Origin: Zoogloea oleivorans
GTDB taxonomy: Bacteria; Pseudomonadota; Gammaproteobacteria; Burkholderiales; Rhodocyclaceae
Assembly: GCF_008107625.1 (NCBI RefSeq)
Contig: NZ_SDKK01000036.1
Coordinates: 1-37,498, forward strand
Reading direction: 5' to 3'
DNA: 37,498 nt
The notes beneath the pieces are model-generated. The model had not been told where the DNA came from. It did not search any database and worked only from the letters and a program-made list of their open reading frames with translations. Below are positions 21,393 through 36,469 of the stretch, piece after piece. The stretch's first letter is position 1, and each line of letters begins with the position of its first letter. The translations under genes and the position numbers were made by a program.

Positions 21393-22367
21393 TTAGTAGC
21401 TGACGTACACGTCGGTCAGCAGATCGGCTTCGGTGGGTTTCGGATCGGACTTGGCCTTGACGACCGAACCGTCGATGAGGGCCTTCACGTCGGCGTCGAT
21501 GGCGTCCAGTTCGGCCTGGGTGATTTCGCCGCTGCTGGTGACGCGGCGGGCGAACTGCAGCAGGCAGTCCTTGGTGTCGCGGATGGCCTGCACTTCACCG
21601 GGGGCGCGGTAGGTTTGCTGGTCGCCCTCGAAGTGGCCGTAGTAGCGCGACAGCTTCACTTCCACCAGGGACGGGCCGCCGCCTTTGCGGGCCCGGTCGA
21701 TGGCGGCGCCGGCGGCTTCATACACCGCGAAGAAGTCGAAGCCATCGACGGTGATGCCCGGCATGCCGAAGGCCGAGGCGCGGTCGGCGATGTTGTCGCA
21801 GGCCACCGAGAACTTGGACGAGGTGGCTTCGGCGTAGCCGTTGTTCTCGGCCAGGAAGATCACCGGCAGGTTCCACACCGAGGCCAGGTTCATGGCTTCG
21901 AAGATGGTGCCCTGGTTGGAGGCGCCGTCGCCGAAGAAGCACACGCTGACAAAGGGCTGGTTGCGCAGCTTGGCCGCCAGCGCGGTGCCGCACACCAGCG
22001 GGCCGCCGCCACCGACGATGCCGTTGGCGCCGAGCATGCCCACCGACAGGTCGGCAATGTGCATGGAGCCGCCCTTGCCCTTGCAGGTGCCGGTCTTCTT
22101 GCCCCAGATCTCGGCCATCATCCCCACCGGGTCGACGCCCTTGGCGATGCAGTGGCCGTGGCCCCGGTGGGTACTGGCAATGTGGTCGTCGGCGGTGAGG
22201 TTCATGCACACGCCGGTGGCCGAGGCTTCCTCACCGGCATAGAGGTGCACGAAGCCGGGGATTTCGCCGGTGGCGAAATCGGTGTGCAGGCGCTCTTCGA
22301 ATTCGCGGATGGTGCGCATGGTGCGATAGGCCTTCAGCAGGTCCTCGCGAGTCAGGGTCTTGGTCAC
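21393..22367 (-). CDS. acoA: Acetoin dehydrogenase E1 alpha subunit
   Basis: A 324-aa E1 alpha subunit. The TPP-binding motif is GDG at residues 146-148 through NN at 175-176 (FFGDGASNQG ... FLAENNGYAE). The substrate-side run THRGHGHCIAKG and GKGGSMHIADLSVGMLGANGIVGGG are typical of the AcoA/PDHA family. CTGGAGACAACC lies before the ATG. It follows acoX after 84 nt; the whole acoXABC block reads on the minus strand from a sigma-54 promoter at about 23536. Confidence 0.96.
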   Translation of the reverse strand: MTKTLTREDLLKAYRTMRTIREFEERLHTDFATGEIPGFVHLYAGEEASATGVCMNLTADDHIASTHRGHGHCIAKGVDPVGMMAEIWGKKTGTCKGKGGSMHIADLSVGMLGANGIVGGGGPLVCGTALAAKLRNQPFVSVCFFGDGASNQGTIFEAMNLASVWNLPVIFLAENNGYAEATSSKFSVACDNIADRASAFGMPGITVDGFDFFAVYEAAGAAIDRARKGGGPSLVEVKLSRYYGHFEGDQQTYRAPGEVQAIRDTKDCLLQFARRVTSSGEITQAELDAIDADVKALIDGSVVKAKSDPKPTEADLLTDVYVSY

Positions 22368-22451: not shown

Positions 22452-23495
22452 TCATGGCGCGGCACTCCGGATCAGGTCGCGGACCATGGCCCCCCGGCGC
22501 ACGGCGGCGGCGAGGGTGGCCGGCACGTCGAGGCTCAGGGGGCCGTCCAGTTCGAGGGTCACGCTGTAGGTCTGGTGGCCGTTCAGTTCGATTTCGCGCT
22601 CGCCGTCGAGGGCGATGCAGCCTTGTTCCGTGCGGATCTGCATCGACTGTCCGGGCGCCAGCAGGCCGTGTTCGTCAATGCCCACCGGCGTTACCAGGCC
22701 CGGCGCGATGGGGGCGAGGACGCCGAGGCCACTGGTGGCGCAGCGCACCCAGCTGCCGCGCGGCACGTCGCGGCCCACCGGTTCCAGCATGGCGGCGATG
22801 CTCGACAGACCGATGGCGTCGGGCTCGGCAAAGGTCACGAAGAGTTCGGCGATGGTGCTCGGGTCCCACACGGCGCGGGCCCCCAGGTGCATCTGGCGGG
22901 TGACGCAGACATCCACCAGGGCGATCTCGTCCACCTTGCTGCCGCGTACGCGGAGCAGCTTGTTGCGCCGGGCCGCTTCACTCACCGGCACTGCGCCGGT
23001 GGCCACCAGGCCGGCGGCAAGGCCGGTGAGGGTGGGTTCGCGCAAATCCGGAAAAGCGTTGTTGGTGCCCGACGACAGGGTGGCCAGCGGGATGTCGCCG
23101 CACTCGCCGGCAACGATGCGGTGGGTGCCGTCGCCGCCCAGTACGACGATCACCGCCACACCGGCGGCGCGCATCTGGCGTACGGCTTCCTGGGTGTCGC
23201 GGGGGCTGTCGGTCAGCGGCATGGGCACAAAGTCCACCACCGGCCAGGGCTGCAGGCCCTGCGCCCGATGGCCGTCGATGGCGCGGATCAGGCCGGCGGC
23301 AATGCCGACCATGTCCGGCATCATCAGCACGTGTTCCACCCCCACGGCCCCGAAGGCGCCGAGCAGGCGCTCGATCATGTTGATCTTTTCCACTGTCGGA
23401 AAGACCAGCGCCTTGCTGGTCAGCCGGCGAATGTCCCGCCCGGAGGCCGGATTGGCGACGATGCCGATGGAGGGGGTGGTGGCAATGTGTTTCAC
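22452..23495 (-). CDS. acoX: AcoX, NAD-kinase-like protein of the acetoin operon
   Basis: A 347-aa protein of the AcoX family, commonly encoded first in acetoin operons. It carries the ATP-NAD kinase signature GGDGT at residues 120-124 (VVLGGDGTHRIVAG), an N-terminal glycine loop (GIVANPASGRDIRRL) and SSGTNNAFP. The biochemical role of AcoX is not established; acetoin dehydrogenase is generally active without it. The start codon is GTG (23493-23495), with no strong ribosome binding site. The sigma-54 promoter lies about 40 bp upstream. Confidence 0.93.
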   Translation of the reverse strand: MKHIATTPSIGIVANPASGRDIRRLTSKALVFPTVEKINMIERLLGAFGAVGVEHVLMMPDMVGIAAGLIRAIDGHRAQGLQPWPVVDFVPMPLTDSPRDTQEAVRQMRAAGVAVIVVLGGDGTHRIVAGECGDIPLATLSSGTNNAFPDLREPTLTGLAAGLVATGAVPVSEAARRNKLLRVRGSKVDEIALVDVCVTRQMHLGARAVWDPSTIAELFVTFAEPDAIGLSSIAAMLEPVGRDVPRGSWVRCATSGLGVLAPIAPGLVTPVGIDEHGLLAPGQSMQIRTEQGCIALDGEREIELNGHQTYSVTLELDGPLSLDVPATLAAAVRRGAMVRDLIRSAAP

Positions 23496-23535: not shown

Positions 23536-23551
23536 AGCACGTGGCGTGCCA
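23536..23551 (-). promoter_or_regulatory. Sigma-54 (-24/-12) promoter of acoXABC
   Basis: On the minus strand the sequence reads TGGCACGCCACGTGCT. GG and GC are separated by exactly 10 nt, as required for sigma-54, and the -24 half is a perfect TGGCAC. The predicted transcription start is near 23525, giving a leader of about 30 nt. The divergent activator gene (acoR) encodes a sigma-54 AAA+ protein with an intact GAFTGA loop. Confidence 0.75.
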
Positions 23552-23705
23552 AATTCAGATTGAATTCCGTTTTGCTGCGCTGCGGAAGCTCGCCGGGCCT
23601 TTTGTATAAAGGGTTTTTGCGGCGTTTTTATTTTTTCATGGTGTGGAGCGGTATTTCTTTCCGGTCGATCCGTATCAATTGGCCTGAGTCATGAAATCGA
23701 GAAAA

Positions 23706-23743
23706 TGAGACACCTGTCTCAATTCTCAGAGACAAACGTCAGC
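23706..23743. promoter_or_regulatory. Putative AcoR enhancer sites at aco
   Basis: Site 1 is TGAGACACCTGTCTCA (23706-23721), a near-perfect palindrome. Site 2 is AGAGACAAACGTCAGC (23728-23743). They start 22 bp apart (two helical turns), about 155-190 bp behind the acoX sigma-54 promoter and about 90-125 bp before the acoR ATG. Matching sites occur at 36421-36469. The rest of the 336-bp acoX-acoR gap shows nothing else I can name. Confidence 0.6.
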
Positions 23744-23831
23744 ATTGATTTAATTGCCGTAGCGGAATAGGCTTCGCCCCACCAAAGGATGGTTTTCCTT
23801 AAAACACTCCCGTATATAAGGGGGAATTAAA

Positions 23832-25850
23832 ATGATTCGGAGACAAGGCGAAATCGCCCGCCACGTGGAACGCGTGGTCGAGGTGGTGGAGCGTGGTGTT
23901 TGCCTGCAGAGAAACCCGGGGCAGGATCGACTGACCCGGTCGTGGCAACGCTCATTGAGCAAATACCAGGTGGACCCTTCCCTGGCCACCACACCCCAGG
24001 TGGTGACCGCCATGGAATTGCGCGAGCACCGGGACCGGATGGACGCCTTCATGCGCATTGCCCGCGAAGGCCTGGACCGCCTGCACCAGCAACTGCGTCC
24101 CTCCAGCTATTGCGTGCTGCTGACCGACGCCACTGGTGTAACGGTGGATTTCCGCACCGTGCCCGAGCAGGATAAGGAGTTTCGCGCCCAGGGTTTTCGC
24201 AACGGCACCCGCTGGTCGGAGATGGAAGAGGGCACCTGCGGTGTCGGCACCAGCCTGGTGGACGGCCAGCCCATCCTGGTGCACCGGGGCGAGCATTTCC
24301 GCTCCCACAACATCGGCTTCACCTGTAGCTCGGCTCCCATCCTCGGCATCGACGATCAGCCGCTGGCGGTGCTCGACGCATCGGCGCTGTATTCCCCGGA
24401 AGGGCGCGACAGCCAGATGCTGGTGTTCCAGATGGTCATCGAGAAGGCGCGCCTGATCGAGGACGCCTTCGCCTTCCACAGCCTGCGCCAGCACTGGATC
24501 CTGCAGCTCGGCTGCACGCCGGAACTGCTCAATGTACAAACCGACTACCTGCTGGCTTTCGACGACGCCGGCCTGTTTGTCGGCGGCAACCGCAAGGCCC
24601 GCAAGGAATTGATGCAGCGCCCGGGGCGCACTGCCCAGTGCGTCTCCGATCTGTTCGAGTGCTCGGCCACCGACCTGCTGGCCGCCGCCCACGCCCGTCC
24701 GGGGCAGGCGATCCCGCTGCGTCTGCTCGACAGCGGCGAGCGCATCTTTGCGCTGCTGCGCGTCCCCGACGCCCGCCGCCAGACGCCCACCACCCAGTCC
24801 AGCGGCGTGTCGGACACCAACGGCTGCAACGAGGCGCGCGGCTTCGGCCACCTGGCCACCGAAGACGCGCGGGTACGTACCAATGTCGACCGCGCCCTCA
24901 AGGTGGCCAACCGCGACATCCCGATCATGCTGATGGGCGAAACCGGCACTGGCAAGGAAGCCTTCGCCAAGGCCATCCACGATTGCAGCAGCCGCTACAA
25001 GCAGCCCTTCGTGGCCCTCAACTGTGCGGCGATTCCCGAAAGCCTGATCGAGAGCGAACTGTTCGGCTACCGGGATGGCGCCTTCACCGGCGCCCGCAGC
25101 AAGGGCGCCCGCGGCAAGATCATCCAGTCGGACGGCGGCACGCTCTTCCTCGATGAAATCGGCGATATGCCGCTGGTGCTGCAAAGCCGGCTGCTGCGCG
25201 TGCTGGCCGAAGGCGAGGTGCTGCCCCTCGGCGCCGAGGAGCCGATTCCGGTGAAGCTGCACATCGTCTGTGCCACCCACCAGAACCTGCCGACCCTCGT
25301 CGAAGAAGGGCGCTTCCGCGAAGACCTGTATTACCGCCTCAACGGCGCCGTGTTCATCCTGCCACCCCTGCGCGAGCGGGACGACATCGGCGTGGTGATC
25401 GACCGGGTGCTGGTGGAAGAAGCCCGCGCCATGGGCCGCGAGGCGATCCGCCTGGCGCCGGAAACCCGCGACGCGCTGCTGCGCCACGGCTGGCCGGGCA
25501 ACATCCGCCAGCTCCGCTATGCCATGCGCTACGCCTGTGCGATCTGCGAAAGCAATCTGCTGCACACGGCGCACTTTCCGCCGGATCTGTTCATCGGGCC
25601 ACGCATTGCCGCGCCGCGCGCCCTGCGCGAAGAGGTGAGCCGGGCGGCCCCGGTGCTGGCGGCGCCGGAGCCCGATCTGCCGCCGCTCAAGGAGAAAGAC
25701 CTGGTGCTGCGCCGGCGCATGCTGGAGGTGCTGTCTCGCAACCAGTGGCAGGTGACGGTGTCGGCGAAGGAACTCGGGCTGTCGCGGGCCACCTTTTACC
25801 GCAAGCTGTCACGGCTCAACATCGTGGCGCCGAATCGGCGGGAGGGATAA
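23832..25850 (+). CDS. acoR: AcoR, sigma-54-dependent activator of acetoin catabolism
   Basis: A 672-aa enhancer-binding protein. Order: N-terminal region with DRLTRSWQRSL, a GAF sensor domain (about 90-215), AAA+ domain (about 340-570) and a Fis-type HTH (about 630-665, QVTVSAKELGLSRATFYRKLSRL). The AAA+ core has Walker A GETGTGKE (369-376), the sigma-54 contact loop GAFTGA (416-421) and Walker B LFLDE (438-442), so it should activate transcription. There is no receiver domain, as in AcoR. GGGGGAATTAAA precedes the ATG. Upstream palindromes at 23706-23743 may serve both acoXABC and autoregulation. Position and architecture support acoR; the inducer in this strain could be acetoin, butanediol or acetaldehyde. 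Confidence 0.93.
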   Translation: MIRRQGEIARHVERVVEVVERGVCLQRNPGQDRLTRSWQRSLSKYQVDPSLATTPQVVTAMELREHRDRMDAFMRIAREGLDRLHQQLRPSSYCVLLTDATGVTVDFRTVPEQDKEFRAQGFRNGTRWSEMEEGTCGVGTSLVDGQPILVHRGEHFRSHNIGFTCSSAPILGIDDQPLAVLDASALYSPEGRDSQMLVFQMVIEKARLIEDAFAFHSLRQHWILQLGCTPELLNVQTDYLLAFDDAGLFVGGNRKARKELMQRPGRTAQCVSDLFECSATDLLAAAHARPGQAIPLRLLDSGERIFALLRVPDARRQTPTTQSSGVSDTNGCNEARGFGHLATEDARVRTNVDRALKVANRDIPIMLMGETGTGKEAFAKAIHDCSSRYKQPFVALNCAAIPESLIESELFGYRDGAFTGARSKGARGKIIQSDGGTLFLDEIGDMPLVLQSRLLRVLAEGEVLPLGAEEPIPVKLHIVCATHQNLPTLVEEGRFREDLYYRLNGAVFILPPLRERDDIGVVIDRVLVEEARAMGREAIRLAPETRDALLRHGWPGNIRQLRYAMRYACAICESNLLHTAHFPPDLFIGPRIAAPRALREEVSRAAPVLAAPEPDLPPLKEKDLVLRRRMLEVLSRNQWQVTVSAKELGLSRATFYRKLSRLNIVAPNRREG

Positions 25851-25879
25851 AGGGTAGGGGCGACCTGTAGGGGCATGCC

Positions 25880-25919
25880 GAGGCTGAAATGCACAAATGC
25901 AAGCCTCTCCGATACTTTT
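25880..25919 (+). terminator. Possible terminator after acoR
   Basis: GAGGCT (25880-25885) pairs with AGCCTC (25902-25907), with inner ATGCA/TGCA pairing, and ACTTTTA follows after a few bases. It is weak, but it lies where an acoR terminator would be expected, before the convergent regulator gene. Confidence 0.35.
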
Positions 25920-25998
25920 AAGTGCCTGGAAGTCCCTGAGGAAGGGGGCGACAAGTAGCCGTGCCCGGACGGGATGGTTGGAGAGGAAATCCTGCTAT

Positions 25999-27495
25999 TT
26001 AGTTCTTTATGGTTTCGGCGAGACGCAACATTGCCGTTTCAATTTCATGTTCCGTCAAGGATGCGTAGCCCAGTACCCAACCGAACTGCTTTTCCGGCCC
26101 CAGATACAGCCGACTCAGTCCAGGCAACTGCACGCCTGCACCCGCTGCTTGCCGAATGGTCTTCGCCTCGGACCATCCTTGCTTCAAGACGCACGGTATC
26201 TGCATTCCCCCCTCCGGTCGCAGGGGCGTGACTATCCTTCCAAGATATTTGTCGATAGCTTCGAGCATTGCCTGCCTGCGACCAGCGTATAGCTTGCGCA
26301 TGGCTCGAACATGGGAATTGTAGTGTCCCTCTTCCATGAAGCGCGCCAAGGTCAATTGAAGAATCTGCGGCGTGTGTCCATCCAGGATGCTTCGTGCGTT
26401 GGTAAATGCACCAACGAGTTGATGGGGCAGCGCCATGTACCCCATTCGCAGACCTGGATAGAGGGTCTTGCCGAAGGTGCCGACATAAAGCGTTCTTTGG
26501 TATTTGTCCAAGCCTTGAACGCACGTTGTTGGCAGGCCGTCGTAATGAAACTCGCTGTCGTAGTCGTCTTCGATAATCCATTTGCCGGTTTCGGCAGCCC
26601 AGTTAATCAAGTCGAGTCTGCGCTCCAGTGACAAGGTGGCTCCCGTGGGGTACTGGTGAGAAGGCGTCACGTAGACGCAACTGGCGCCGCTGCGGTCCGC
26701 CCGCAGGAGGTCCGTGCGTATGCCTTGTGTATCAACGTCGACAGGGACAACCCTGGCCTCGGCGGATTCGAAGGCCTTCTTTGCACCAAAGTAGCCGGGG
26801 TTCTCCATCAGGATCGGCTTGCCGGCATCGACCAGTAATTGTGCGCACAGGAACAGTGCTTGCCTGGTGCTGCTGAGCACCAATATCTGTTCGGGGGAAA
26901 CCTTGGCGCCACGCTGGAGATTCAGGTAGGTGGCAATCTCCTCGCGCAGCGGCTCTGCGCCTTGAGGGTCGCCGTGCAGTAGGACCTGAGCGCGATAGTC
27001 CTTTGATACCTGGCGCTGGAGGCGCTCCCACACATCCGTGGGAAATGTGCGGGTTTCAGGCAAACCTGTGGCAAAGGCTTTGATGGCTTGCTGATCGGAA
27101 ATTCCGCCACTGTCGAGGATCATCCGGCCACGCCTGCTCAGGCCTGCGCCGGGTGCGGTCTCATTGCACTTCGGGGTTTCAGGCCTCTGGTGCCGACGTT
27201 CGGCACCTCGCAGTTCGGTGCCCATCGTCTCTGGTACATAACTGCCAGAACCCTTTCGTCGGATGACGAAGCCATCGCGCTGAAGCTGCACGTAGGCGTT
27301 TTCAACGGTGTCACGGGCAACCCCCAGTGACCTGGCCAGCGCGCGCGTGGCAGGCAGCTTCACGCCAGGCCCCAGTGCGCCGTCGAGTATCAGGGCACGC
27401 AGGGCACGCTGGATGCGTTGATGTAGATCCAGGCGTTGAAGGTCCGCGTCATTCAACCGCATCTTCAGCGTTTCAAGCTCAAGTGTGCTTTTCAT
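25999..27495 (-). CDS. MocR/PdxR-like GntR-family regulator with aminotransferase domain
   Basis: A 498-aa regulator. Residues about 20-88 are a GntR winged HTH (LHQRIQRALRALILDGAL, KLPATRALARSLGVARDTVENAYVQL, GSGSYV). Residues about 135-495 are a fold-type I aminotransferase domain. The PLP-binding lysine is Lys343 (GTFGKTLYPGLRMGY) and the PLP-ring Asp lies in IIEDDYDSEFHYDG, so PLP binding is predicted. MocR proteins sense PLP or amino compounds and usually control a neighbouring gene. This one diverges from the BenE-type permease with a 151-bp gap holding repeated GTGGTCTGC boxes. The ATG at 27495 lacks a clear ribosome site; Met12 is an alternative start. The segment 26000-27650 looks less GC-rich than its surroundings, perhaps a sign of acquisition. 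Confidence 0.92.
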   Translation of the reverse strand: MKSTLELETLKMRLNDADLQRLDLHQRIQRALRALILDGALGPGVKLPATRALARSLGVARDTVENAYVQLQRDGFVIRRKGSGSYVPETMGTELRGAERRHQRPETPKCNETAPGAGLSRRGRMILDSGGISDQQAIKAFATGLPETRTFPTDVWERLQRQVSKDYRAQVLLHGDPQGAEPLREEIATYLNLQRGAKVSPEQILVLSSTRQALFLCAQLLVDAGKPILMENPGYFGAKKAFESAEARVVPVDVDTQGIRTDLLRADRSGASCVYVTPSHQYPTGATLSLERRLDLINWAAETGKWIIEDDYDSEFHYDGLPTTCVQGLDKYQRTLYVGTFGKTLYPGLRMGYMALPHQLVGAFTNARSILDGHTPQILQLTLARFMEEGHYNSHVRAMRKLYAGRRQAMLEAIDKYLGRIVTPLRPEGGMQIPCVLKQGWSEAKTIRQAAGAGVQLPGLSRLYLGPEKQFGWVLGYASLTEHEIETAMLRLAETIKN

Positions 27496-27604
27496 GTGGT
27501 CTGCTCATCTGTCGAGGTTCTGGTCGAGTTGATCAAAAGTGGTCTGCAAGTAATCGATAAAGTGTCATGTCGTGGCAGTCCATTGTGGCGGTATAAAACC
27601 ACTT
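27496..27604. promoter_or_regulatory. Putative MocR operator repeats
   Basis: GTGGTCTGC occurs as a direct repeat at 27496-27504 and 27539-27547. The core AGTGGT recurs inverted as ACCACT at 27598-27603. MocR-type regulators usually bind direct repeats between themselves and the divergent target. TATAAA at about 27592 could be a -10 box for the permease gene. Confidence 0.35.
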
Positions 27605-27646
27605 TCGACACCAGGCGTCTCACACTTCAGAGGGAATCATCAAGTC

Positions 27647-28906
27647 ATGCCCACTTCAAGCTCTCCACCATCTGTTCAATTTCGCGACCTCGTTCACCCG
27701 ATTGTGGCTGGCCTCATCTCGGTCATCGTCAACTACGGCGGCACCTTCATCCTGGTCTTTCAGGCCGCCAAGGTGGCAGGTCTCAACCCGGAACTGACGG
27801 CGTCATGGGTATGGTCGATTTCGATTGGCGTAGGGGTGACGGGACTTGTCCTCAGCTGGATAACACGTGAACCGATCATCACGGCTTGGTCCACGCCGGC
27901 GGCGGCGTTCCTGGCTACCGCACTGGCCACGACGCCCTATGCCGAGGCGGTGGGCGCATACCTGATCTCGGCCGCTGCTTTCGTGGCGCTGGGTCTATCG
28001 GGCTACTTCGAGAGGCTCATCCGCCTCATTCCGCCCGGTGTGGCCGCCGGGCTGTTGGCGGGCATTCTGTTGCAGTTCGGTATCGGAGCCTTCGGCGGGG
28101 TGAGCATCGACCCGCTGCTGGCGGGCTTGCTGATCGTGGCCTATGTCGTGCTCAAGCGGTTCAGCGCACGCTATGCCGTGATCGGCATTCTGATTCTGGG
28201 GCTGGCGTTTCTGCTCACCCAGGGGCGTGTTGATCTGTCGGGTCTGCAATTGCAGTTCGCCGCGCCGGTCTTCACCATGCCGGTGTTTACACTCAATGCC
28301 TTGCTCAGTGTGGCGTTGCCGCTGTTCCTGATTACCCTGACCGGACAATACATGCCCGGCATGCTGGTGCTGCGCAACGATGGTTTCAAGACCAGCGCCA
28401 ATCCCATCGTGACCCTTACCGGGCTGGGCTCGCTGCTGATGGCGCCGTTTGGCTCCCATGCGTTCAACATCGCCGCGATAACGGCGGCTATCTGTACCGG
28501 CAAGGAAGCGCACGAAGATCCCTCCAAACGCTGGGTCGCGGGCATGGCGGCCGGCATCTTCTATATTCTCGTCGGGGTGTTTGGCGTGACGCTCGCAGCG
28601 GTCTTCATGGCCTTTCCGGCGGCCTTTATCACCACGCTGGCTGGCCTTGCGCTGTTGGGCACGATCGGCAGCAGTCTCGCCAGCGCCATGGCTGACCCGA
28701 AGTCCCGCGAAGCCGCCCTGATCACCTTCCTGGCCGCCGCGGCCAATATCAAACTGTTTGGTATTGGCGGGGCATTCTGGGGACTGGTGATCGGCCTCGT
28801 GGCTTACGCGGTGCTTCTTGGCCGTTTGCCGCGCCACGAACCGGCACACAAGGCGGGCCTCACTGCCATCTCCGGCCCGGTGACCGGCAAAGGGGCGATC
28901 GCTTGA
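27647..28906 (+). CDS. BenE-family benzoate/H+ symporter-like permease
   Basis: A 419-aa membrane protein with about 11-12 hydrophobic segments. It matches the BenE group: HPIVAGLISVIVNYGGTFILVFQAAKVAGLNPELTASWVWSISIGVGVTGL, WSTPAAAFLA, YFERLIRLIPPGVAAGLLAGILLQFG, GSHAFNIAAITAAICTGKEAH, DPSKRWVAGMAAGIFYILVG. AGAGGGA stands upstream of the ATG at 27647; the open frame from 27572 is an artefact. BenE is named for benzoate uptake, but here no benzoate gene is near; neighbours are a PLP-sensing regulator, a YggS remnant and glyA, so an amino-acid-like or vitamin-related substrate is possible. Confidence 0.88.
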   Translation: MPTSSSPPSVQFRDLVHPIVAGLISVIVNYGGTFILVFQAAKVAGLNPELTASWVWSISIGVGVTGLVLSWITREPIITAWSTPAAAFLATALATTPYAEAVGAYLISAAAFVALGLSGYFERLIRLIPPGVAAGLLAGILLQFGIGAFGGVSIDPLLAGLLIVAYVVLKRFSARYAVIGILILGLAFLLTQGRVDLSGLQLQFAAPVFTMPVFTLNALLSVALPLFLITLTGQYMPGMLVLRNDGFKTSANPIVTLTGLGSLLMAPFGSHAFNIAAITAAICTGKEAHEDPSKRWVAGMAAGIFYILVGVFGVTLAAVFMAFPAAFITTLAGLALLGTIGSSLASAMADPKSREAALITFLAAAANIKLFGIGGAFWGLVIGLVAYAVLLGRLPRHEPAHKAGLTAISGPVTGKGAIA

Positions 28907-29085
28907 TGTGTTCCTGCAAGTCAACACCTCTGGCGAAACCAGCAAGTACGGTCTGCCTCCCGCTGACGTACCGGCCTTTCTCCAGGCTTTGCCGGCATTT
29001 CCGGTGCTACGCACACTGCGTGACCGGCTTCGCCAAGGCGCACCTGCCTGAACGAACTGTCCATGGGCATGTCTGGCCCACCAAA
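28902..29085 (+). pseudogene. Remnant of a YggS/PLPBP (pyridoxal phosphate homeostasis) gene
   Basis: Frame 28902-29051 encodes LDVFLQVNTSGETSKYGLPP, then ADVPAFLQALPAFPVLR, then TLRDRLRQGAPA and a stop. The first block is the central VQVNTSGE-xSKxGL signature of YggS/PROSC proteins. The last block is the LRDRL stretch that in intact proteins lies tens of residues further on, so an internal deletion is likely. After a frameshift, ELSMGMSG (from 29054) gives the next conserved YggS motif (LSMGMS). The N-terminal half, with the PLP lysine, is missing because the permease gene occupies that position; its stop codon overlaps the remnant. Non-functional; it marks a rearrangement between permease and glyA. 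Confidence 0.75.
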
Positions 29086-29234
29086 CCCGATACCGAGGAG
29101 CCCCGTTCATGAAAGTCACCGTTGCCATCCGGCCGCGCCCGCCACGGGTGTGTGATGAGGCACAGAGCGACGACATCGTCGCGCGTGGCTCGTCCTTTTT
29201 TTCCGGCTCATCCAGATCACAGGACCACAGCATC

Positions 29235-30500
29235 ATGCACGCCCCATCGGTAACCCTTGCCGAATTCGACGCCGAGCTTTCCGAGGCTATCCGTAACGAA
29301 GAGCGCCGTCAGGAAGACCACATCGAACTGATCGCATCCGAGAACTACGCCAGCCCGCTGGTGATGGCAATCCAGAACTCGGTCTTTACCAACAAGTATG
29401 CCGAGGGCTATCCGGGCAAACGCTACTACAGTGGCTGCGAGTATGTTGACGTTGCCGAACGCCTCGCCATCGAGCGCGCCAAGGCGCTTTTCGACTGCGA
29501 CTACGTCAATGTCCAACCGCACGCCGGTGCCCAGGCCAACGCCGCGGTCTTTCTGGCGCTGGTCAAACCCGGCGACACCGTGATGGGGATGAACCTGGCC
29601 CACGGGGGGCACCTCACCCACGGCAATCCGTCCAACTTTTCCGGCCGGCATTACAGGATTGTTCCCTACGGCCTTGATCCGGAGACTGGACTGATCGATT
29701 TCGACGAGATGGAGCGCATTGCCCTGGAGGCCCGGCCCGGGATGCTCATCGGTGGCTTCTCCGCTTATTCCCGGCATAAGGACTGGGCGCGCATGCGTGC
29801 CATCGCCGACAAGGTGGGGGCCATCTTGTGGGTGGACATGGCCCACGTGGCCGGTCTGGTGGCGGCCGGCGAGTATCCGGATCCGTTGCCTCATGCCCAC
29901 GTGGTAACCAGCACCACCCACAAAACCCTGCGGGGGCCACGTGGCGGCATCATCCTGTCCAAGGGCCAGGGCGAAGACTTCTACAAGAAGCTCGACTCTG
30001 CGGTATTCCCTGGCGTCCAGGGCGGCCCGCTGATGCACATCATTGCCGCCAAGGCGCTTGCGTTCAAGGAGGCTCTGTCGCCCGAGTTCAAGACCTACCA
30101 GCGGCAGGTAGTGACCAATGCCCGTGCCATCGCCGCCGTGCTCCAGCAACGCGGCTACAAGATCGTCTCCGGGGGGACTGACAACCACATGATGCTGATC
30201 GACCTCTCCGACAAGCCCTACACCGGCAAGGATGCGGATGCAGCCCTGAGCGATGCCTGCATTACGGCGAACAAGAACTCGGTACCGAATGATCCGCGCT
30301 CGCCCTTTGTGACGTCAGGGCTGCGTATCGGCACTCCGGCCGTCACGACCCGTGGCTTCGGTGTGGCGGAATGCGAGCAGTTGGCAGGCTGGTTGTGTGA
30401 CGTGCTGGACGCGCTGGAGTCGGGCTCCAGTCACCAGGTGGCGTGCCATGTTCGGGAGCAGGTGGCGGCCTTGTGCCGTCGTTATCCTGTGTATCGATAA
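29235..30500 (+). CDS. glyA: Serine hydroxymethyltransferase
   Basis: A 421-aa PLP enzyme interconverting serine and glycine with tetrahydrofolate. Clear motifs are [63 protein letters not shown], the PLP lysine Lys230 in [15 protein letters not shown], and [15 protein letters not shown] prefer the ATG at 29235 ([15 protein letters not shown]), which aligns with family N termini. A start at 29109 has a good GGAG but would add 42 residues of non-family sequence ([15 protein letters not shown]), probably decayed DNA. Placement with a PLP-type regulator and a YggS remnant suggests an accessory copy rather than the housekeeping gene, though this cannot be proven here. Confidence 0.94.
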
Positions 30501-30743
30501 GCCGTTGGAGCGTGTGAAGCCCGGTCTGCACTGGCCGGGCCGGTATGGCCAGTGTTGCGGGGATACCTGCAGTTTGCTTTTGCCACGGAATTCAAGTGTG
30601 GGCGAATAACAAGCAACAAGATTCCCTAATCCGGTTATTGCTGATTATGCAGTCGGTGAAAAAACACGCAGACGATGAGCATCCGGCTCAAGAGCCACAA
30701 ACGTGTAGCCGAAGTCCATCCGGCCGGAAATATCAAAATCCAT

Positions 30744-30973
30744 CGAATTTTCGATCTCTGGCGTTGATCTTTCGATCCCGGCGGTCGATTAATCGGATCC
30801 AGAGATCGATTAATCGATGGGTTTCGTTATTTTTCGGACGGAATCGTCCGAATTTTCAATCCGAAAGATTGAATTTTCGATGCCGGAGGTGAATTAATCG
30901 ATCCGGGGGGTGAGTTTTCGGTCGTGGAGGTCGATTAATCGGGCTCGGGGGGAGAAATTTCAGCGAATGACCT
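30744..30973. repeat. AT-rich tandem array, 11 units with a period of about 21 bp
   Basis: Units start at 30744, 30766, 30786, 30807, 30825, 30849, 30870, 30890, 30911, 30932 and 30953 (mean spacing 20.9 bp). The common core is YGAWTTWTCGAT followed by a G-rich half such as CCGGAGGT. Several units carry the palindrome CGATTAATCG. The alternation of an AT block and a G-rich block every two helical turns suggests a bent or protein-covered segment. Confidence 0.7.
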
Positions 30974-31022
30974 GGAAAATCCTCTCGTGGCCGGCGATGT
31001 TTTGCTCAGGAGCGGTGTTTCG

Positions 31023-31044
31023 GTGGGTCGGACTTCAGTCCGAC
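31023..31044 (+). repeat. Single REP element upstream of the PEP-CTERM gene
   Basis: One perfect 22-nt REP (GTGG foot plus hairpin) with no inverted partner nearby. It lies about 185 bp before the PEP-CTERM protein start and 50 bp after the 21-bp array. Confidence 0.8.
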
Positions 31045-31228
31045 GATGGCAAAACACCCCAAATTCGCCTCGAACACAAGATATCTGAGGCTCCCGTGAA
31101 AAAGCGCACTGTTTGAATGGCGGCTTAGCCGCTGACGGGATGTCGCCGCGTGGGCGGCTGTTATGATCAAAGCGGTAACGAATTTTACGGTTTTTGAAAA
31201 ATTAAAACTTCTTGATGGGATGGCTTGC

Positions 31229-31861
31229 ATGAAAAAAAGACCGGGCTTGATTCGCCGCACACTCACCACAATGCTTATTGCAACGGCGGGTATTGCCGGC
31301 AGCGCGCAAGCATCGATCGTCAATCTTGAAGGTGTGACGTCTTGCTACGATTTGGACTGCAATAATGTCCAAGGCTTCGATTTTTCATTTTTTGCTGCGG
31401 GCTGGGGCGTCAGCGACGACGGCAACAATTACTTCAACCGTAATGGCCGCAGCGCCAGTGAAGGGTTGGTTGGGGCCCGTGGCGCCCGCGATGCGACATC
31501 TACGCTCTATGTTTCGATGACGCAGTCTGGTGGCGGCGCATTTGATCTTGGCCAACTTGATATGGCGACTGGGTACTCGGGCTTCGCCGGCAATGCGATG
31601 ATTGAGGTTATCGGTAGCTTGTCAGGGGGCGGGCAGATTTCGGAGCTGATCGAAGTGTCTTCGGCATGGAATACTTTTTTTCTGACGGGCTTCACGGGAG
31701 TGACCGAAGTCACGTTCCTCACGCGTAATGCGGTGGCCGGTGTCAGCATCGACAATCTGAATAGCGAAGGTCGCGGGACCGTGCCTGAGCCTGGTTCTCT
31801 GGCCCTCATTGGCTTGGGACTTGCCGGCCTGATCGAGCGACGTCGCCGCAAATCGGCCTGA
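31229..31861 (+). CDS. PEP-CTERM sorting domain protein, secreted
   Basis: A 210-aa exported protein. It has a signal peptide (MKKRPGLIRRTLTTMLIATAGIAGSAQA) and a C-terminal PEP-CTERM sorting signal: VPEPGSLALIGLGLAG, then a basic ERRRRKSA tail. This tripartite signal is processed by exosortase A in exopolysaccharide-producing Gram-negatives. The middle region (two Cys in CYDLDC, rich in Gly, Asn, Ser) has no domain I recognise; it is probably a surface or matrix protein. GATGGGA lies 7 nt before the ATG at 31229; ATG 31220 is an alternative start. No exosortase or EPS genes are in the window. Confidence 0.88.
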   Translation: MKKRPGLIRRTLTTMLIATAGIAGSAQASIVNLEGVTSCYDLDCNNVQGFDFSFFAAGWGVSDDGNNYFNRNGRSASEGLVGARGARDATSTLYVSMTQSGGGAFDLGQLDMATGYSGFAGNAMIEVIGSLSGGGQISELIEVSSAWNTFFLTGFTGVTEVTFLTRNAVAGVSIDNLNSEGRGTVPEPGSLALIGLGLAGLIERRRRKSA

Positions 31862-31931
31862 TGACGCATGGCAAAGAACAGGGCCCCTTCGGGGGGCAGG
31901 TCCGCAGTCTGAAGGTGGCGCATTAGAGGCC

Positions 31932-32014
31932 GTGGGTCGGACTTCAGTCCGACAACGCCGGTTCAGCTGGCGGTGCGGGTTCCGCCGACTGAGTCGGACT
32001 GAAGTCCGACCCAC
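31932..32014. repeat. REPIN 8 with extended spacer
   Basis: REP arms at 31932-31953 and 31993-32014 are perfect, but the spacer is 39 nt instead of 21-22. The spacer includes CGGTTCAGCTGGCGGTGCGG, which also occurs in the spacer of the element at 32518, showing common descent. Confidence 0.8.
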
Positions 32015-32071
32015 GGGGGCGATCCCGGTCAGCGGCACATCGTCTGCACCGCCCGCCGGGATGGATGGCTT

Positions 32072-32419
32072 TTACGCTTTCGTGGACGGGTCCGCGTCGT
32101 CCTTTTTGGCCGTTTTCTGATCCGGCTCGCGGGCGCCGAAGGCCTGGAACATGGAAAAGAACGAATGCGTGAAGGCGTCGTGCATTTTTTCCATGTCGGT
32201 GACCATGTGTTCCCACGCGTCCACGCCGGAGGCCTTCATTTCATCCAGCTTTACGGTGGCAACTTTGGATTGCTCACGCAGCTTGACCATCTCGTCCTTG
32301 TATTTCTGACGGGCTTCTTCCTTGGCTTCCTTGGCCGTGGCCTCCAGGTCGTGCATTTTCTTGTTCAGCTTGTCGAGTTGAACTTCCATCTTGTCGATGT
32401 ATTCGGCGCGTTTTGACAT
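32072..32419 (-). CDS. Small coiled-coil protein, sll1863-like stress response family
   Basis: A 115-aa, highly charged protein starting MSKRAEYIDKMEVQLDKLNKK. Residues 5-65 are a long heptad-rich coiled coil (KLNKKMHDLEATAKEAKEEARQKYKDEMVKLREQ), followed by a helical region with Trp and Met (GVDAWEHMVTDMEKMHDAFTHSFFSMFQAF) and an acidic, Lys-rich tail. The pattern agrees with the sll1863 stress family, found near genes for stress or membrane protection; its function is unknown. Phasin-like proteins look similar, so the family call is moderate. The longer frame to 32533 is unlikely because it runs into REPIN 9. Confidence 0.7.
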   Translation of the reverse strand: MSKRAEYIDKMEVQLDKLNKKMHDLEATAKEAKEEARQKYKDEMVKLREQSKVATVKLDEMKASGVDAWEHMVTDMEKMHDAFTHSFFSMFQAFGAREPDQKTAKKDDADPSTKA

Positions 32420-32517
32420 TGTGATAAGCCCTTGCTGTTGAAAGTGATGGTCGGGAAACAAGGGCAGAATGTTCATAAAGCGGGGGAGGGTCTGTACGGT
32501 CTCGCACAAAAGGGGCC

Positions 32518-32618
32518 GTGGGTCGGACTTCACTCCGACAGCGCAGGTTCAGCCGACAGCCCCGGTTCAGCTGGCGGTGCGGGTTTAGCTGGTTGAGTCG
32601 GACTGAAGTCCGACCCAC
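32518..32618. repeat. REPIN 9, long-spacer variant at the cytochrome c 3' end
   Basis: Left arm 32518-32539 has one mismatch (TTCACTCC for TTCAGTCC); the right arm 32597-32618 is perfect. The 57-nt spacer contains a duplicated GGTTCAGC block and shares about 20 nt with REPIN 8. It ends 15 nt from the stop codon of the cytochrome gene. Confidence 0.75.
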
Positions 32619-32633
32619 AGAGGATGCTTGTCT

Positions 32634-33305
32634 TCAGGGTTGCTGTTTGCCGAGGTATTGCAGGTAGGCGACCAGTTCCCAGATCTGTTCTTCGGTAAAG
32701 GCGGCGCCCCACGGCGGCATCACGTCGGCGCCCTGGCGGCCTTTGTAGATGGTTTCGTAGGCCATTTCGGCGGGCAGATCGGTGCGGCCCTTGAAGTCGG
32801 GGGCGCGGCCGCCGATGCCTTCGAAGCCGTGGCAGTAGCCGGCACAGGTCTTGGCGAAGCGGCGTTTGCCGGCGTTGATGCGGGTTTCGTCGTTGAGATC
32901 GAAAGGCGCCAGCGGGCCGGTGCTCTGGCCGCCGGGGGTGGCGGCGAGGCGCTTCACGTAGGCCACCAGTTGTTCGATCTCGGTGCTTTCGAGCACGGTG
33001 CCCCACGGCGGCATGGCCTTGTCGCCGTGCTTGCCGTGGATGATGCGGTCGCGGATCTTGTCTTCGGCGAGGTCGCTGCGCGCGGTGAGTTTCGGCCCGT
33101 AGCTGGCGCCGCTGCCGCTGCCGGCCACGCCGGCGCCGTGCTCGCCGTGGCAGCTCACGCACAGCTGGTCGAAACGGGCCCGGCCGGCGGCGATGCGGGC
33201 CTTGCCTTCATCGGCGGGAGGCGCCACGGCGCCAAGGTCGGCGATCAGGGCGAGGAGCAGGGCGGCGGGGGCGAGGCGTTGCAGGATTACGCGGATGGGG
33301 TTCAT
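32634..33305 (-). CDS. Periplasmic di-heme cytochrome c with one CX3CH site
   Basis: A 223-aa exported protein. The signal peptide covers about residues 1-26 (MNPIRVILQRLAPAALLLALIADLGAVA). Two class I cytochrome c domains follow. The first has a standard heme site, Cys49-Val-Ser-Cys52-His53, with Met98 (AMPPW) as the likely sixth ligand. The second reads Cys154-Ala-Gly-Tyr-Cys158-His159, a CX3CH motif with one extra residue, with Met196 (VMPPW). It follows the PQQ dehydrogenase gene after 121 nt on the same strand and is the probable electron acceptor of that enzyme. The start is fixed by the signal peptide, with GAGAG upstream. Confidence 0.9.
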   Translation of the reverse strand: MNPIRVILQRLAPAALLLALIADLGAVAPPADEGKARIAAGRARFDQLCVSCHGEHGAGVAGSGSGASYGPKLTARSDLAEDKIRDRIIHGKHGDKAMPPWGTVLESTEIEQLVAYVKRLAATPGGQSTGPLAPFDLNDETRINAGKRRFAKTCAGYCHGFEGIGGRAPDFKGRTDLPAEMAYETIYKGRQGADVMPPWGAAFTEEQIWELVAYLQYLGKQQP

Positions 33306-33375
33306 TTTTTTCTCTCTGTCCGTATAAGGAAAAAGGGGTGCGGCGTCCGGAGGCAGGCGCCACACCCTATAAACA

Positions 33376-33407
33376 GCACGACTGGCCGCGTCCGGCCCGG
33401 GTCGTGC
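33376..33407 (-). other. Hairpin between PQQ dehydrogenase and cytochrome c genes
   Basis: GCACGAC (33376-33382) pairs with GTCGTGC (33401-33407), with GGCC/GGCC pairing inside. No T-run follows on the minus strand. It probably protects the upstream message or sets relative expression rather than ending transcription. Confidence 0.4.
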
Positions 33408-33426
33408 CGCGGAGCAAAAACGGTGC

Positions 33427-35094
33427 TTACTCGAGGGTGAAGCCGATCAGGGCAGCGCCGCCCGGCAGGTCCTTGATCTGCGGGAAGGCGCCGGCCAGGA
33501 AGCCCGGGGCGTGGGAGCCGAGGCCGGTCGGGATGACGATGTATTGCTTGCCCTTGACCGCGTAGCTCACCGGGCCGCCGCGGGCGCCGGAGCCGGCGTT
33601 GAAGCGCCACAGCTCCTTGCCGTTGTCGGCGTCGTAGGCGTACAGGCGGCCTTCCATGTCGCCGGTGAAGACCAGCCCGCCGGCGGTGGTCAGCACGCTG
33701 GACAGGGGCGGCAGCTCGTAGCGGATGCTCCACTTGAGCTTGCCGGTCAGCGGGTCGCGGGCATCCAGGCGGCCGTCAGGCTTCTTGCCGTTGGGCGGCG
33801 GCACCAGCTTGATCTCGTCGATGCCCAGCGACAGCGAGGAGATGGCGGTCAGATTGGACGGGTCGTCCTTGCCGGAGACCACTTCGTTGCACACCTCCAT
33901 GGCGTGGGAGTACCACAGGCCGGTGCCCGGGTTGTAGGCGCCATGGTTCCAGCTGCGCGCGCCGAGCAGGTTGGGGCACAGCAGTTCGCGCTTGCCCGGC
34001 TGGGGACGGCGCGGTTCGATGAGGGCGCCGGTCTTGGGGTCGATGCCCTTGGCCCAGTTCATGTTCTCGGCAAACTGCCAGACGTTTTCGAGGGAGCCGT
34101 CGGTCTTGTCCATGACGAACACGAAGCCGCTCTTGTTGAGGTGGACGATCACGTCCTTGCCGTCTTTCTTGACCAGCAGGGCCTCGTAGGCGGAGTCGAA
34201 GTCCCAGGTGTCGTGGGGGATTTCCTGGCGGTGCCACTTGAGCTTGCCGGTCTTGGGGTCGATGGCGAGCAGGGTGGCGGTGTACTTGTTGTCGCCCTCG
34301 CGGCCGGGGGTGTAGTAGTCGGGGGCGGCATTGGAGGTGCCGATGTAGATGGTGTCGGTGCTCTCGTCGTAGGTGCCGGGCATCCACGCCGAGCCGCCGC
34401 CCACCTTGCCGCTGTCGCCGGGCCAGCTGGCCGGGTCGTTCTTGATGACTTCAAAGTTCCACACCGGCTTGCCGGTGTCGGCATTTACCGCGTAGATCTT
34501 GCCGGCGATGGGCTGATCGCCCCCGGTGGTGCCACCGAAGAGCACGTCACCGGCCAGCTGCGGCGGGGCCGAGAACAGCGCGCCGTACTGGCTCTTGGGG
34601 TCGGTCAGCTGGGTGCTCCACACTTCCTTGCCGGTCTTCTGGTCGAGGGCGATGAAGCGCCCGTCGAGGCTGCCGATGAAGACCTTGCCGCGGCCCACCG
34701 TCACGCCGCGGCTGGCCGAGGCGTAGAAGGCCTGCTTGGCGATCGGGTTGAGCTTGGCGGTGTAGTGCCACAGGGTCTTGCCGGTGGCGGCATCCACCGC
34801 CCAGGCGTTGTTGTCGGCCGAGATGTAGTACAGCACCCCGTCGAGCACGATGGGGGTGGCCTGCAGGCCGTGGGTGATGTTGCCTGGCTGGTGGATCCAC
34901 GCCACCTTGAGCTTCTTGACGTTGTTCTTGTTGATCTGGGTGAGCGGGCTGTAGCGCCACGCGTTGTAGCTGCGGTGGTATTGCGGCCAGTTGTCCGGGT
35001 CGGCATAGCCGGGGCGGGTTTCGGCGGCACAGGCGGCGCCAGCGATCAGCAGCGCGCCGGCACAGGCGGCCAGGCGGAATTGGGGTTTTTTCAT
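33427..35094 (-). CDS. PQQ-dependent alcohol dehydrogenase (quinoprotein), periplasmic
   Basis: A 555-aa eight-bladed propeller quinoprotein with a signal peptide (about 1-23, ending AACA). Propeller motifs repeat as DAATGKTLWHY, DQKTGKEVWS, NADTGKPVWNF, DPKTGKLKWH and DADNGKELWRF. By alignment with methanol/ethanol dehydrogenases, Asn255 (IGTSNAAPD) and Asp298 (HDTWDFD) are the metal ligand and catalytic base. Asp300, two residues on, is the extra Asp associated with lanthanide-using enzymes. The usual metal-ligand Glu is replaced by Asp193 (GGDQPIAG), and the vicinal Cys-Cys near PQQ is absent (YASASRG). AAGGAA favours the ATG at 35094. Probable electron acceptor: the cytochrome downstream. 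Substrate unknown; the shared regulatory sites with aco suggest a small alcohol such as 2,3-butanediol or ethanol. Confidence 0.9.
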   Translation of the reverse strand: MKKPQFRLAACAGALLIAGAACAAETRPGYADPDNWPQYHRSYNAWRYSPLTQINKNNVKKLKVAWIHQPGNITHGLQATPIVLDGVLYYISADNNAWAVDAATGKTLWHYTAKLNPIAKQAFYASASRGVTVGRGKVFIGSLDGRFIALDQKTGKEVWSTQLTDPKSQYGALFSAPPQLAGDVLFGGTTGGDQPIAGKIYAVNADTGKPVWNFEVIKNDPASWPGDSGKVGGGSAWMPGTYDESTDTIYIGTSNAAPDYYTPGREGDNKYTATLLAIDPKTGKLKWHRQEIPHDTWDFDSAYEALLVKKDGKDVIVHLNKSGFVFVMDKTDGSLENVWQFAENMNWAKGIDPKTGALIEPRRPQPGKRELLCPNLLGARSWNHGAYNPGTGLWYSHAMEVCNEVVSGKDDPSNLTAISSLSLGIDEIKLVPPPNGKKPDGRLDARDPLTGKLKWSIRYELPPLSSVLTTAGGLVFTGDMEGRLYAYDADNGKELWRFNAGSGARGGPVSYAVKGKQYIVIPTGLGSHAPGFLAGAFPQIKDLPGGAALIGFTLE

Positions 35095-35122
35095 GGTCAT
35101 ATTCCTTTTTATTCCGCAGGGC

Positions 35123-36259
35123 TCAGAACGTGAAGTTGATACCGGCATTCACCAGCGTGGCGGTATTGCCGACACTCGGCACTCCGGCGGCAACGATGCT
35201 GGTCTTGATCGTCGCCGCGCTGTCTGCATCCACGATGGCCATCTGCACATAAATCGTGGTGTCGGCGCGCAGGGCAAAGTCGTTGCTCAGCACGATGTTG
35301 CGGGTGTGGTCCTTGCTGTTGCGCTTGTCCTTGTTGTCGTAATAGGCAAGGGTCGCGGTGTTTTGCGGATGCCATTTCCAGTCCACGCCGACGCCCATCG
35401 CATTGACGTTGGAGACATTGGCGCCGGTACTCAACTGGTTCTTGGCGTTGAGGTAATTGGCCTTGAAGGTGAAATCGCCAAAGGGCACCGCGATGCCGAG
35501 CCCGCCGTGCTTGACGTTGTCGTTGGCGGTGGCTTCGTCCTTGATGACCTGATAGGAGGCTGACAGGATGACCGGGCCGGTATAGGAGGCGCCGGCCGCC
35601 AGCACGGTGTTCTTGTCCATGCTGCCGGCCTTGCCGCCGGGCGACCACAGCACGCCGAAATTGACCGGGCCAATCGTGTTGCGATACTGGATCGCATTGC
35701 TGAAGAAAATACCGACGTCGTTATTGGTATTGCGCTCGGTGCCCGGGGCGCCGGCGGTGGCCGCGTACTGGTTGTAGGCCCAGGCGTAAAGATTGGAGAA
35801 TTGCTCCTTGAAGGCACGCGGTTCGGTGGCGATATGGGCCAGCAGGGCGGGGCCATATTGGCGGCCAAACGTCACACTGCCCCAGTCGCCCCGCAGGCCC
35901 AGGTTGGCCTGACGACGGAAGAAGGGGGTGCCAGTGCCGTCTGCATCACCCGTGCCGTGAAACTTGCCGTTATTGGTATCGAAATGGGCTTCCAGATTGA
36001 AGAAGCCTTCCAGACCCTTGCCGAGATCCCGGTCGCCCTTGAAACCCAGTACGGTCTGGCGCAAGCCGCTGGTTTCCATGGAGGTCTTGCTCTGGCCGGT
36101 CGGGTCGGCCTTGCTCTGATACAGCAAGCCGGCATCGATGATGCCGTATATCGAGACGTTGTTTTCCGCCATTACCGGTACCGATGCAGTCAATAGCAGC
36201 AGCGCGGCGGAGATGTTCTTCCTTTTCAGGCGGCGCGAAACGGGTGTGTGCTGAAGCAT
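35123..36259 (-). CDS. Outer-membrane porin, first gene of the PQQ dehydrogenase operon
   Basis: A 378-aa porin of the Gram-negative porin (Porin_4/OmpC-like) family. It has an N-terminal signal peptide (cut after VMA before ENNVSIYG), the motif NNVSIYGIIDAGLLY, GLRQTVLGFKGDRDLGKGLEGFFNLEAHFD, RRQANLGLRGDWGSVTFGRQYGP, and the C-terminal strand ATLVNAGINFTF ending in Phe. AGGAGACATTC precedes the ATG at 36259. The PQQ dehydrogenase starts 28 nt downstream, so porin, dehydrogenase and cytochrome are one unit for uptake and periplasmic oxidation of an alcohol. A sigma-54 promoter lies about 95 bp upstream. It is only distantly similar to the porin at 3851. Confidence 0.92.
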   Translation of the reverse strand: MLQHTPVSRRLKRKNISAALLLLTASVPVMAENNVSIYGIIDAGLLYQSKADPTGQSKTSMETSGLRQTVLGFKGDRDLGKGLEGFFNLEAHFDTNNGKFHGTGDADGTGTPFFRRQANLGLRGDWGSVTFGRQYGPALLAHIATEPRAFKEQFSNLYAWAYNQYAATAGAPGTERNTNNDVGIFFSNAIQYRNTIGPVNFGVLWSPGGKAGSMDKNTVLAAGASYTGPVILSASYQVIKDEATANDNVKHGGLGIAVPFGDFTFKANYLNAKNQLSTGANVSNVNAMGVGVDWKWHPQNTATLAYYDNKDKRNSKDHTRNIVLSNDFALRADTTIYVQMAIVDADSAATIKTSIVAAGVPSVGNTATLVNAGINFTF

Positions 36260-36351
36260 GAATGTCTCCTCTTGTTTTTTTCGTCCCGGAATACCAGTCC
36301 GGAACGCTGGAACTCCACCGGCCTGAAATAGCCGACGGGCAAGAGGGGAAT

Positions 36352-36367
36352 TGCAACTTCCTTGCCA
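36352..36367 (-). promoter_or_regulatory. Sigma-54 (-24/-12) promoter of the porin-PQQ dehydrogenase operon
   Basis: On the minus strand the sequence reads TGGCAAGGAAGTTGCA: GG and GC are 10 nt apart, and the -12 element TTGCA is a perfect match. Predicted start near 36341, leader about 80 nt. Confidence 0.75.
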
Positions 36368-36420
36368 GAAATGAAATTCCGCTTTCAATCAGGAAAAAGA
36401 CCCGGGTCGCAGGGAAATAA

Positions 36421-36469
36421 AGAGACAGGTGTCTCAATTGGGCTTGCGACGCGAGAGACAAACGTCTCT
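36421..36469. promoter_or_regulatory. Putative AcoR-type enhancer sites at the porin-PQQ operon
   Basis: Site 1 AGAGACAGGTGTCTCA (36421-36436) is the reverse complement of the core of the site at 23706. Site 2 AGAGACAAACGTCTCT (36454-36469) matches 23728-23743 at 14 of 16 bases and has perfect 6-bp arms. The starts are 33 bp apart, three helical turns. They lie 55-105 bp behind the sigma-54 promoter at 36352. Confidence 0.6.

Follow-up and report, generated by a model that had tools for sequence, protein, structure and literature searches.

A palindrome pair shared by acoXABC and a PQQ dehydrogenase operon predicts a joint AcoR-sigma-54 regulon in Zoogloea oleivorans

Why do two operons that lie about 13 kb apart in Zoogloea oleivorans carry the same pair of palindromes upstream of the same type of promoter? 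The window analyzed here is a whole stretch of 37,498 nucleotides (NZ_SDKK01000036.1, contig C48 of a Zoogloea-group genome of 5.68 Mb). Between 18 and 24 kb, its minus strand encodes acoX-acoA-acoB-acoC together with lipA, and the divergent acoR starts at 23832. An operon for a porin, a pyrroloquinoline quinone (PQQ)-dependent dehydrogenase and a cytochrome c occupies 32.6 to 36.3 kb of the minus strand, divergent from thiC; the names acoB, acoC, lipA and thiC come from sequence and conserved order. A sequence-only reading of the window had proposed that AcoR or a paralogue co-induces both operons. Our results predict a conserved AcoR-sigma-54 regulon that joins acetoin cleavage to a periplasmic PQQ module.

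The candidate AcoR box, GAGACA-N2-TGTCTC, is present in exact form at both loci: as GAGACACCTGTCTC at 23707 to 23720, in the acoR-acoX intergenic region, where it is conserved in relatives, and as GAGACAGGTGTCTC at 36422 to 36435, upstream of the porin-PQQ dehydrogenase-cytochrome c operon. Pattern searches of the window reproduced the sites and coordinates of the sequence-only reading, including a second shared site, AGAGACAAACGTC, at both 23728 and 36454. At the PQQ operon this site is nearly a full box (GAGACAAACGTCTC, one mismatch, 36455 to 36468, 33 bp from box 1). The promoter-distal partner at aco (23728 to 23743) is weaker, consisting of AGAGACAAACGTC and a degenerate half, three mismatches off the box. 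The two copies of site 1 had also been described as reverse-complement twins. They do match over 16 bp after reverse complementing, with one end base different (TGAGACACCTGTCTCA versus TGAGACACCTGTCTCT), but the description adds little because the site is itself palindromic. The core-to-core distance is 22 bp at aco and 33 bp at the PQQ operon, and spacings of 22 and 32 to 33 bp amount to approximately two and three helical turns.

Each pair accompanies a -24/-12 promoter element on the minus strand, TGGCACGCCACGTGCT at 23536 to 23551 for acoXABC and TGGCAAGGAAGTTGCA at 36352 to 36367 for the porin-PQQ dehydrogenase operon, both with GG-N10-GC spacing and both conserved in relatives. Scored against what we take to be the consensus (TGGCA...TTGC, GG-N10-GC), both elements reach 11/12. 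They are the sole 11/12 matches in 37.5 kb, none reaches 12/12, and rpoN is encoded in the genome, as is pqqC. The promoter assignments thus stand.

Could the shared sites be a coincidence or copies of a dispersed repeat? The exact box has two occurrences in all 5.68 Mb, both inside the window, and its reversed control has none; four boxes are found genome-wide at up to one mismatch, three of them in the window. Once two mismatches are allowed, the motif does not outnumber the control (41 versus 54 genome-wide), so that only their position makes weak sites trustworthy. Window shuffles at two mismatches reached the count for site 1 in 8 of 100 cases and that for site 2 in 12 of 100, neither being significant. 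Among the window's perfect palindromes of 6-2-6 form two arms recur, GAGACA and the dispersed CGGACT. Exact sites, spacing, promoters and neighborhood are nevertheless conserved across genera, as described below, and an origin by coincidence or as a dispersed repeat is exceedingly improbable. The fourth near-box, at C40:150980, was judged to be a chance match, with no evident -24/-12 element nearby on reading. Another near-box, two mismatches off, precedes a PQQ dehydrogenase gene on C35 and is not claimed as a site.

Across 150 sampled family genomes, the exact palindrome occurred at 12 places in 7 genomes, and the reversed control at 4 places. Five of these places were upstream of acoX, three upstream of the porin-PQQ dehydrogenase operon and three upstream of a second PQQ dehydrogenase (about 34% identity), so that 11 of the 12 preceded acoX or a PQQ dehydrogenase; the twelfth (L016) had none of the reference genes nearby. 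The other PQQ dehydrogenase preceded by exact boxes (33 to 34% identity; L207, L208 and L209 in genomes G094, G118 and G070) is, judged by these boxes, a possible third member of the regulon.

We then compared 43 upstream rows chosen for a readable acoR/acoX or porin neighborhood, accepting partner sites with up to three mismatches; at least two genomes appear twice among them (L022/L052 and L023/L046). A GG-N10-GC element scoring at least 9/12 was present in all 43. The partner site lay at 21 to 23 bp in 18 of 20 aco rows (L036 and L056 were without a partner) and at 32 to 33 bp in 20 of 23 PQQ rows, the exceptions being L056 (52 bp), L045 (44 bp) and L046 (one site). These spacings fit the proposal that the two sites keep the same DNA face. 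The PQQ upstream regions outside the 43 rows, left out by eye from the locus map, were those of L027 (first operon), L028, L037 to L044, L053, L055 and L057 to L073. A one-mismatch scan found a match upstream of the PQQ dehydrogenase in L042, L043, L044, L057, L058 and L059, a match on the acoR-acoA side only in L053, only the second operon's pair in L027 and L028, and no match in L037 to L041, L055 and L060 to L073. Some Zoogloea loci (L027, L031 and L032) carry a second porin-PQQ dehydrogenase operon after the first, with its own 32-bp box pair and -24/-12 element.

The wider order provided less. The pattern matched in 34 of 250 genomes and AcoR in 5 of 150, the genome studied here included, and outside the family these scans yielded only AcoR relatives of at most 50% identity. 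Among 30 order-wide loci, an acoR-like match was seen in the genome's own locus (L127) and in L101, L108 and L122 (36 to 47%).

Box presence follows the AcoR orthologue. In the family sample the PQQ dehydrogenase was found at E ≤ 1e-180 in 21 of 150 genomes (65 to 100% identity), an AcoR orthologue of at least 63% identity in 11 and AcoA of at least 80% identity in 11 (13 at E ≤ 1e-100). Every AcoR genome and every AcoA genome is among the 21. AcoR and the PQQ dehydrogenase share a contig, within about 13 kb of each other, in 10 of the 11 AcoR genomes; in G094 they are on two contigs. We examined the 1.6 to 1.9 kb upstream of the best PQQ dehydrogenase copy in each of the 21 genomes, leaving out second copies (L204 and L205). 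A box with up to one mismatch was present in 9 of 11 genomes with AcoR and in 0 of 10 without it (Fisher p = 2e-4, relatedness ignored), a level reached in 0 to 2 of 200 shuffles per region. At this stringency the porin-PQQ dehydrogenase operon shows the pattern expected of a member of the AcoR regulon.

Together, the exact places, the proximity of AcoR and the PQQ dehydrogenase, and the tracking of the box support co-control, and AcoR probably governs both acoXABC and the porin-PQQ dehydrogenase operon. Given the shared site pair and the side-by-side position of the operons in many relatives, the two very probably form a single pathway with a common regulator. The palindrome pairs would be upstream activator sites of AcoR, a protein with a GAF domain, a sigma-54 AAA+ domain with an intact GAFTGA loop, as had been noted before, and a Fis-type helix-turn-helix (HTH), encoded next to acoXABC (23832 to 25850, plus strand; domain matches). 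An inducer, presumably acetoin, would activate this enhancer-binding protein, which would bind as two dimers on one DNA face and loop to sigma-54 RNA polymerase at the -24/-12 elements, switching on acoXABC and the porin-PQQ dehydrogenase-cytochrome c genes together. Alcohol would enter through the porin and be oxidized in the periplasm by the PQQ enzyme, with electrons passing to the cytochrome, and AcoABC would split the resulting ketol into acetyl-CoA and acetaldehyde.

Several observations weigh against joint control. At up to two mismatches the contrast between genomes is lost (11 of 11 versus 7 of 10, p = 0.09, not significant) because seven AcoR-less genomes carry GCGACA-N2-TGTCGC. The test treats related genomes as independent, although genera g49 and g60 include both types. 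The best PQQ boxes of G070 and G005 are two mismatches off, and the second PQQ dehydrogenase copies (54 to 56%; L204 and L205) in the AcoR genomes G060 and G104 have no box with up to one mismatch. No acoR or aco match was seen in the examined flank of the Zoogloea loci L026 and L030, and L034 and L035 have only weaker acoR homologues there (43 to 51%), so that some near kin share the split arrangement. In the seven genomes with the GCGACA box, the PQQ operon is divergent from a different E1 alpha/beta operon (41 to 53% identity). The genome itself encodes five more full-length AcoR-like proteins (35 to 50%), four of them near other PQQ dehydrogenases, which could cross-talk. Finally, removal of an upstream hairpin left activation by BmoR of Thauera butanivorans like that of the wild type (PMC8899819), so a palindrome need not be essential.

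The additional AcoR-like proteins raise the question of whether one of them is the true shared regulator, for instance the 50% paralogue on C38, which resembles AcoR. However, 7 of the 11 AcoR genomes are without a second hit at E ≤ 1e-150 among the best 7 candidates scored per genome. The C38 paralogue adjoins its own PQQ dehydrogenase, where there is no box with up to one mismatch, and its recognition helix reads SRSTLYRR as opposed to SRATFYRK. The latter is constant among 13 AcoR orthologues (12 of 13, with PRATFYRK in L053). Of the two proteins named by the sequence-only reading, AcoR is therefore the better supported, and control by a paralogue appears unlikely. AcoR-like genes lie near PQQ dehydrogenases on C38 (L094), C46 (L095) and C45 (L096), and no box with up to one mismatch was found at any of these three loci. 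Activators of the AcoR type may be the usual regulators of PQQ alcohol oxidation in the group.

The separation of about 13 kb is not general. In this genome 6.5 kb of other genes intervenes (25999 to 32533: mocR-like, benE, glyA-like, a PEP-CTERM-like protein and sll1863-like, of which the glyA-like and PEP-CTERM-like names were read from open reading frames [ORFs]), and these genes are absent there in compact relatives. The compact order thiC/porin/PQQ dehydrogenase/cytochrome c/acoR/acoX/acoA/acoB is found in L033, L045 to L052, L054 and L056. Such loci occur in Methyloversatilis, some Zoogloea and metagenome-assembled genomes (MAGs), and in Aromatoleum without an acoX match; in L042, L044 and L053, acoR and acoA had no acoX match between them. 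The genes can also be co-directional, with PQQ dehydrogenase-cytochrome c and acoXABC behind a 41% acoR homologue in L061, and in the order porin-PQQ dehydrogenase-cytochrome c-acoR' (40%)-acoXABC in L201.

What does the PQQ enzyme oxidize? The dehydrogenase (33427 to 35148, minus strand; profile and alignment) has its closest relative, at 98% identity, in a MAG named Zoogloea oleivorans, and the genome contains five other PQQ dehydrogenase loci. It scored 451 bits against TIGR03075 (methanol/ethanol family), below the curated cut-off of 480, and by this measure is a relative outside the curated subfamily. Aligned sequences have a ring Cys pair (Cys-Cys in 1kv9, 1kb0 and 6zcv) where this enzyme reads FYASASRG, and no Cys pair was found in any of the 42 relatives that share at least 59% identity (L064 covered in part). 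The metal site reads HDTWDFD, in which WDFD aligns with WDFD of 6zcv, which we take to be PedH, as opposed to WDFT of 1kv9. The extra Asp two residues past the catalytic Asp, the mark of lanthanide-type enzymes, is thus present; the D-x-D motif is found in all 42 relatives (L026 to L067) and likewise in six below 59% (L068 to L073), outside that count. All 42 also have GGDQP, with Asp in place of the expected Glu, presumably a metal ligand. In PedH it is the extra Asp of the D-x-D motif that has been linked to lanthanides (PMC5487730). We found no characterized member of this subfamily. The match in G005 (L147) has one TGA and one TAG within the matched stretch and may be a decayed copy or an assembly error.

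Given the coupling to acetoin cleavage, the simplest reaction would be conversion of 2,3-butanediol to acetoin, and 2,3-butanediol is our tentative candidate for the preferred substrate, though we would hold somewhat short of even confidence in it. The route from 2,3-butanediol or ethanol through acetoin or acetaldehyde, suggested by the sequence-only reading, remains plausible on the basis of gene clustering. Under the same control by AcoR, the PQQ enzyme might instead take ethanol or other short alcohols, acetaldehyde being a product of ethanol oxidation and of acetoin cleavage alike. With PedE and PedH of Pseudomonas putida, activity on 2,3-butanediol is more than 10-fold below that on ethanol (0.39 versus 6.7 and 0.78 versus 11.0 U/mg), and in an earlier study growth on 2,3-butanediol was independent of both (PMC5487730); these two results keep ethanol a live rival. 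In relatives, moreover, the neighbors of the enzyme include other E1/E2 genes and a GMC-like oxidoreductase (named from their sequences), so its substrate range may be wider. On the other side are the repeated clustering with acetoin-cleaving enzymes, including the co-directional arrays, and the ability of the P. putida PQQ enzymes PedE and PedH to oxidize (2S,3S)-2,3-butanediol to acetoin (PMC8427195); no aldehyde dehydrogenase was seen among the named genes of the window. We regard preference for ethanol or another short alcohol as possible rather than probable. The P. putida operon includes a butanediol dehydrogenase gene, pp0552, whereas none was seen beside aco among the ORFs of this window, to which that search was confined.

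The AcoR-less genomes offer a second view of the same module. Seven of them have a perfect GCGACA-N2-TGTCGC and a -24/-12-like element at the PQQ operon. As the operon lies beside a different E1 operon in 7 of 10 AcoR-less genomes, acetoin is not the sole possible partner. An AcoR-like protein (44 to 45%) is encoded about 8 kb away in G026 and G086, and another (43%) on a different contig in G145, all with the helix CRAT[VI]YR; the activator was not found for G049, G067, G110 and G115. Co-variation of helix and box (SRATFYRK with GAGACA, CRAT[VI]YR with GCGACA) was only partly borne out, in that the second helix occurs without its box in G028 and G032. In both lineages, to judge from these comparisons, an AcoR-type activator and a thiamine pyrophosphate-dependent E1 seem to be coupled to the PQQ module, the operator being shifted by one letter. 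A bolder proposal, which we consider possible but less likely than not, is that the uncharacterized lanthanide-type subfamily is a dedicated periplasmic dehydrogenase for 2,3-butanediol, or for a related ketol-forming substrate, that replaces the cytosolic nicotinamide adenine dinucleotide (NAD) enzyme in the family's acetoin catabolism under GAGACA-N2-TGTCTC; the sister lineage would use the same enzyme with another E1 operon under GCGACA-N2-TGTCGC, one base being changed per half-site. In L186 to L191 and L193, GCGACA-N2-TGTCGC separates the PQQ dehydrogenase operon from E1/E2 genes that run divergently and are clustered with GMC-oxidoreductase-like ones. The AcoR-like proteins in L168 to L172 have GxFTGG in place of GAFTGA.

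Known AcoR systems comprise a GAF-AAA-HTH activator and a -24/-12 promoter. As in the sigma-54-dependent control of acoXABC in Cupriavidus, Pseudomonas and Bacillus, acoR here stands beside acoX-acoABC; the predicted regulon differs in adding a periplasmic porin-PQQ dehydrogenase-cytochrome module. Such an arrangement may have been described before, for example in work on Azoarcus alcohol dehydrogenases. In B. subtilis, of a different phylum, the AcoR operator is likewise palindromic, spanning about 30 bp with two pairs of sub-sites (PMC10018347), a likeness at the level of description. The BmoR-Pbmo system, by its description, also resembles the present one in its alcohol-responsive sigma-54 activator and its inverted repeat far upstream of a -24/-12 promoter (PMC8899819), but its target is an alkane monooxygenase promoter. 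PedE and PedH share the PQQ dehydrogenase family and the PedH-type metal-site Asp with the enzyme studied here (PMC8427195, PMC5487730). They differ in belonging to a ped cluster away from aco, regulated by AgmR and PedS2/PedR2 (PMC12997753), and, unlike them, the present enzyme has no ring Cys pair and carries Asp at the Glu position. Within the titles and abstract beginnings of the open-licence literature, which mostly excludes subscription journals, no report connects AcoR and acetoin dehydrogenase with a PQQ dehydrogenase operon except PMC8427195, which has acetoin dehydrogenase and PQQ dehydrogenase at separate loci of P. putida.

The box is thus a concrete candidate for the operator of a proteobacterial AcoR, with a regulon predicted by sequence alone, and would place an orphan PQQ dehydrogenase subfamily in acetoin metabolism. 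If the enzyme is indeed of the lanthanide type, rare-earth-dependent periplasmic oxidation would be tied to acetoin or butanediol use in, for example, Zoogloea.

The remaining genes of the two operons all lie on the minus strand. The NAD-kinase-like acoX (22452 to 23495; PF01513) was named by conserved position, and acoA, the acetoin dehydrogenase E1 alpha (21393 to 22367; PF00676), by conserved order. The E1 beta gene acoB (20351 to 21361) and acoC, a lipoyl/hydrolase-like E2 (19239 to 20351), were read as ORFs without a library scan and placed by conserved order. The outer-membrane porin (Porin_4, PF13609) spans 35123 to 36259, presumably starting at the ATG downstream of the promoter; the mechanical ORF begins at a TTG, 36388. 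The cytochrome c (32634 to 33365), with two haem-domain stretches (PF13442 twice), is the presumed electron acceptor of the PQQ dehydrogenase. The perfect 6-2-6 palindrome with CGGACT arms is present in 17 copies in the window (20 to 32599), often closely paired, as at 19120 and 19160 and at 31938 and 31995; these dispersed copies form a repeat family resembling repetitive extragenic palindromes or terminators.

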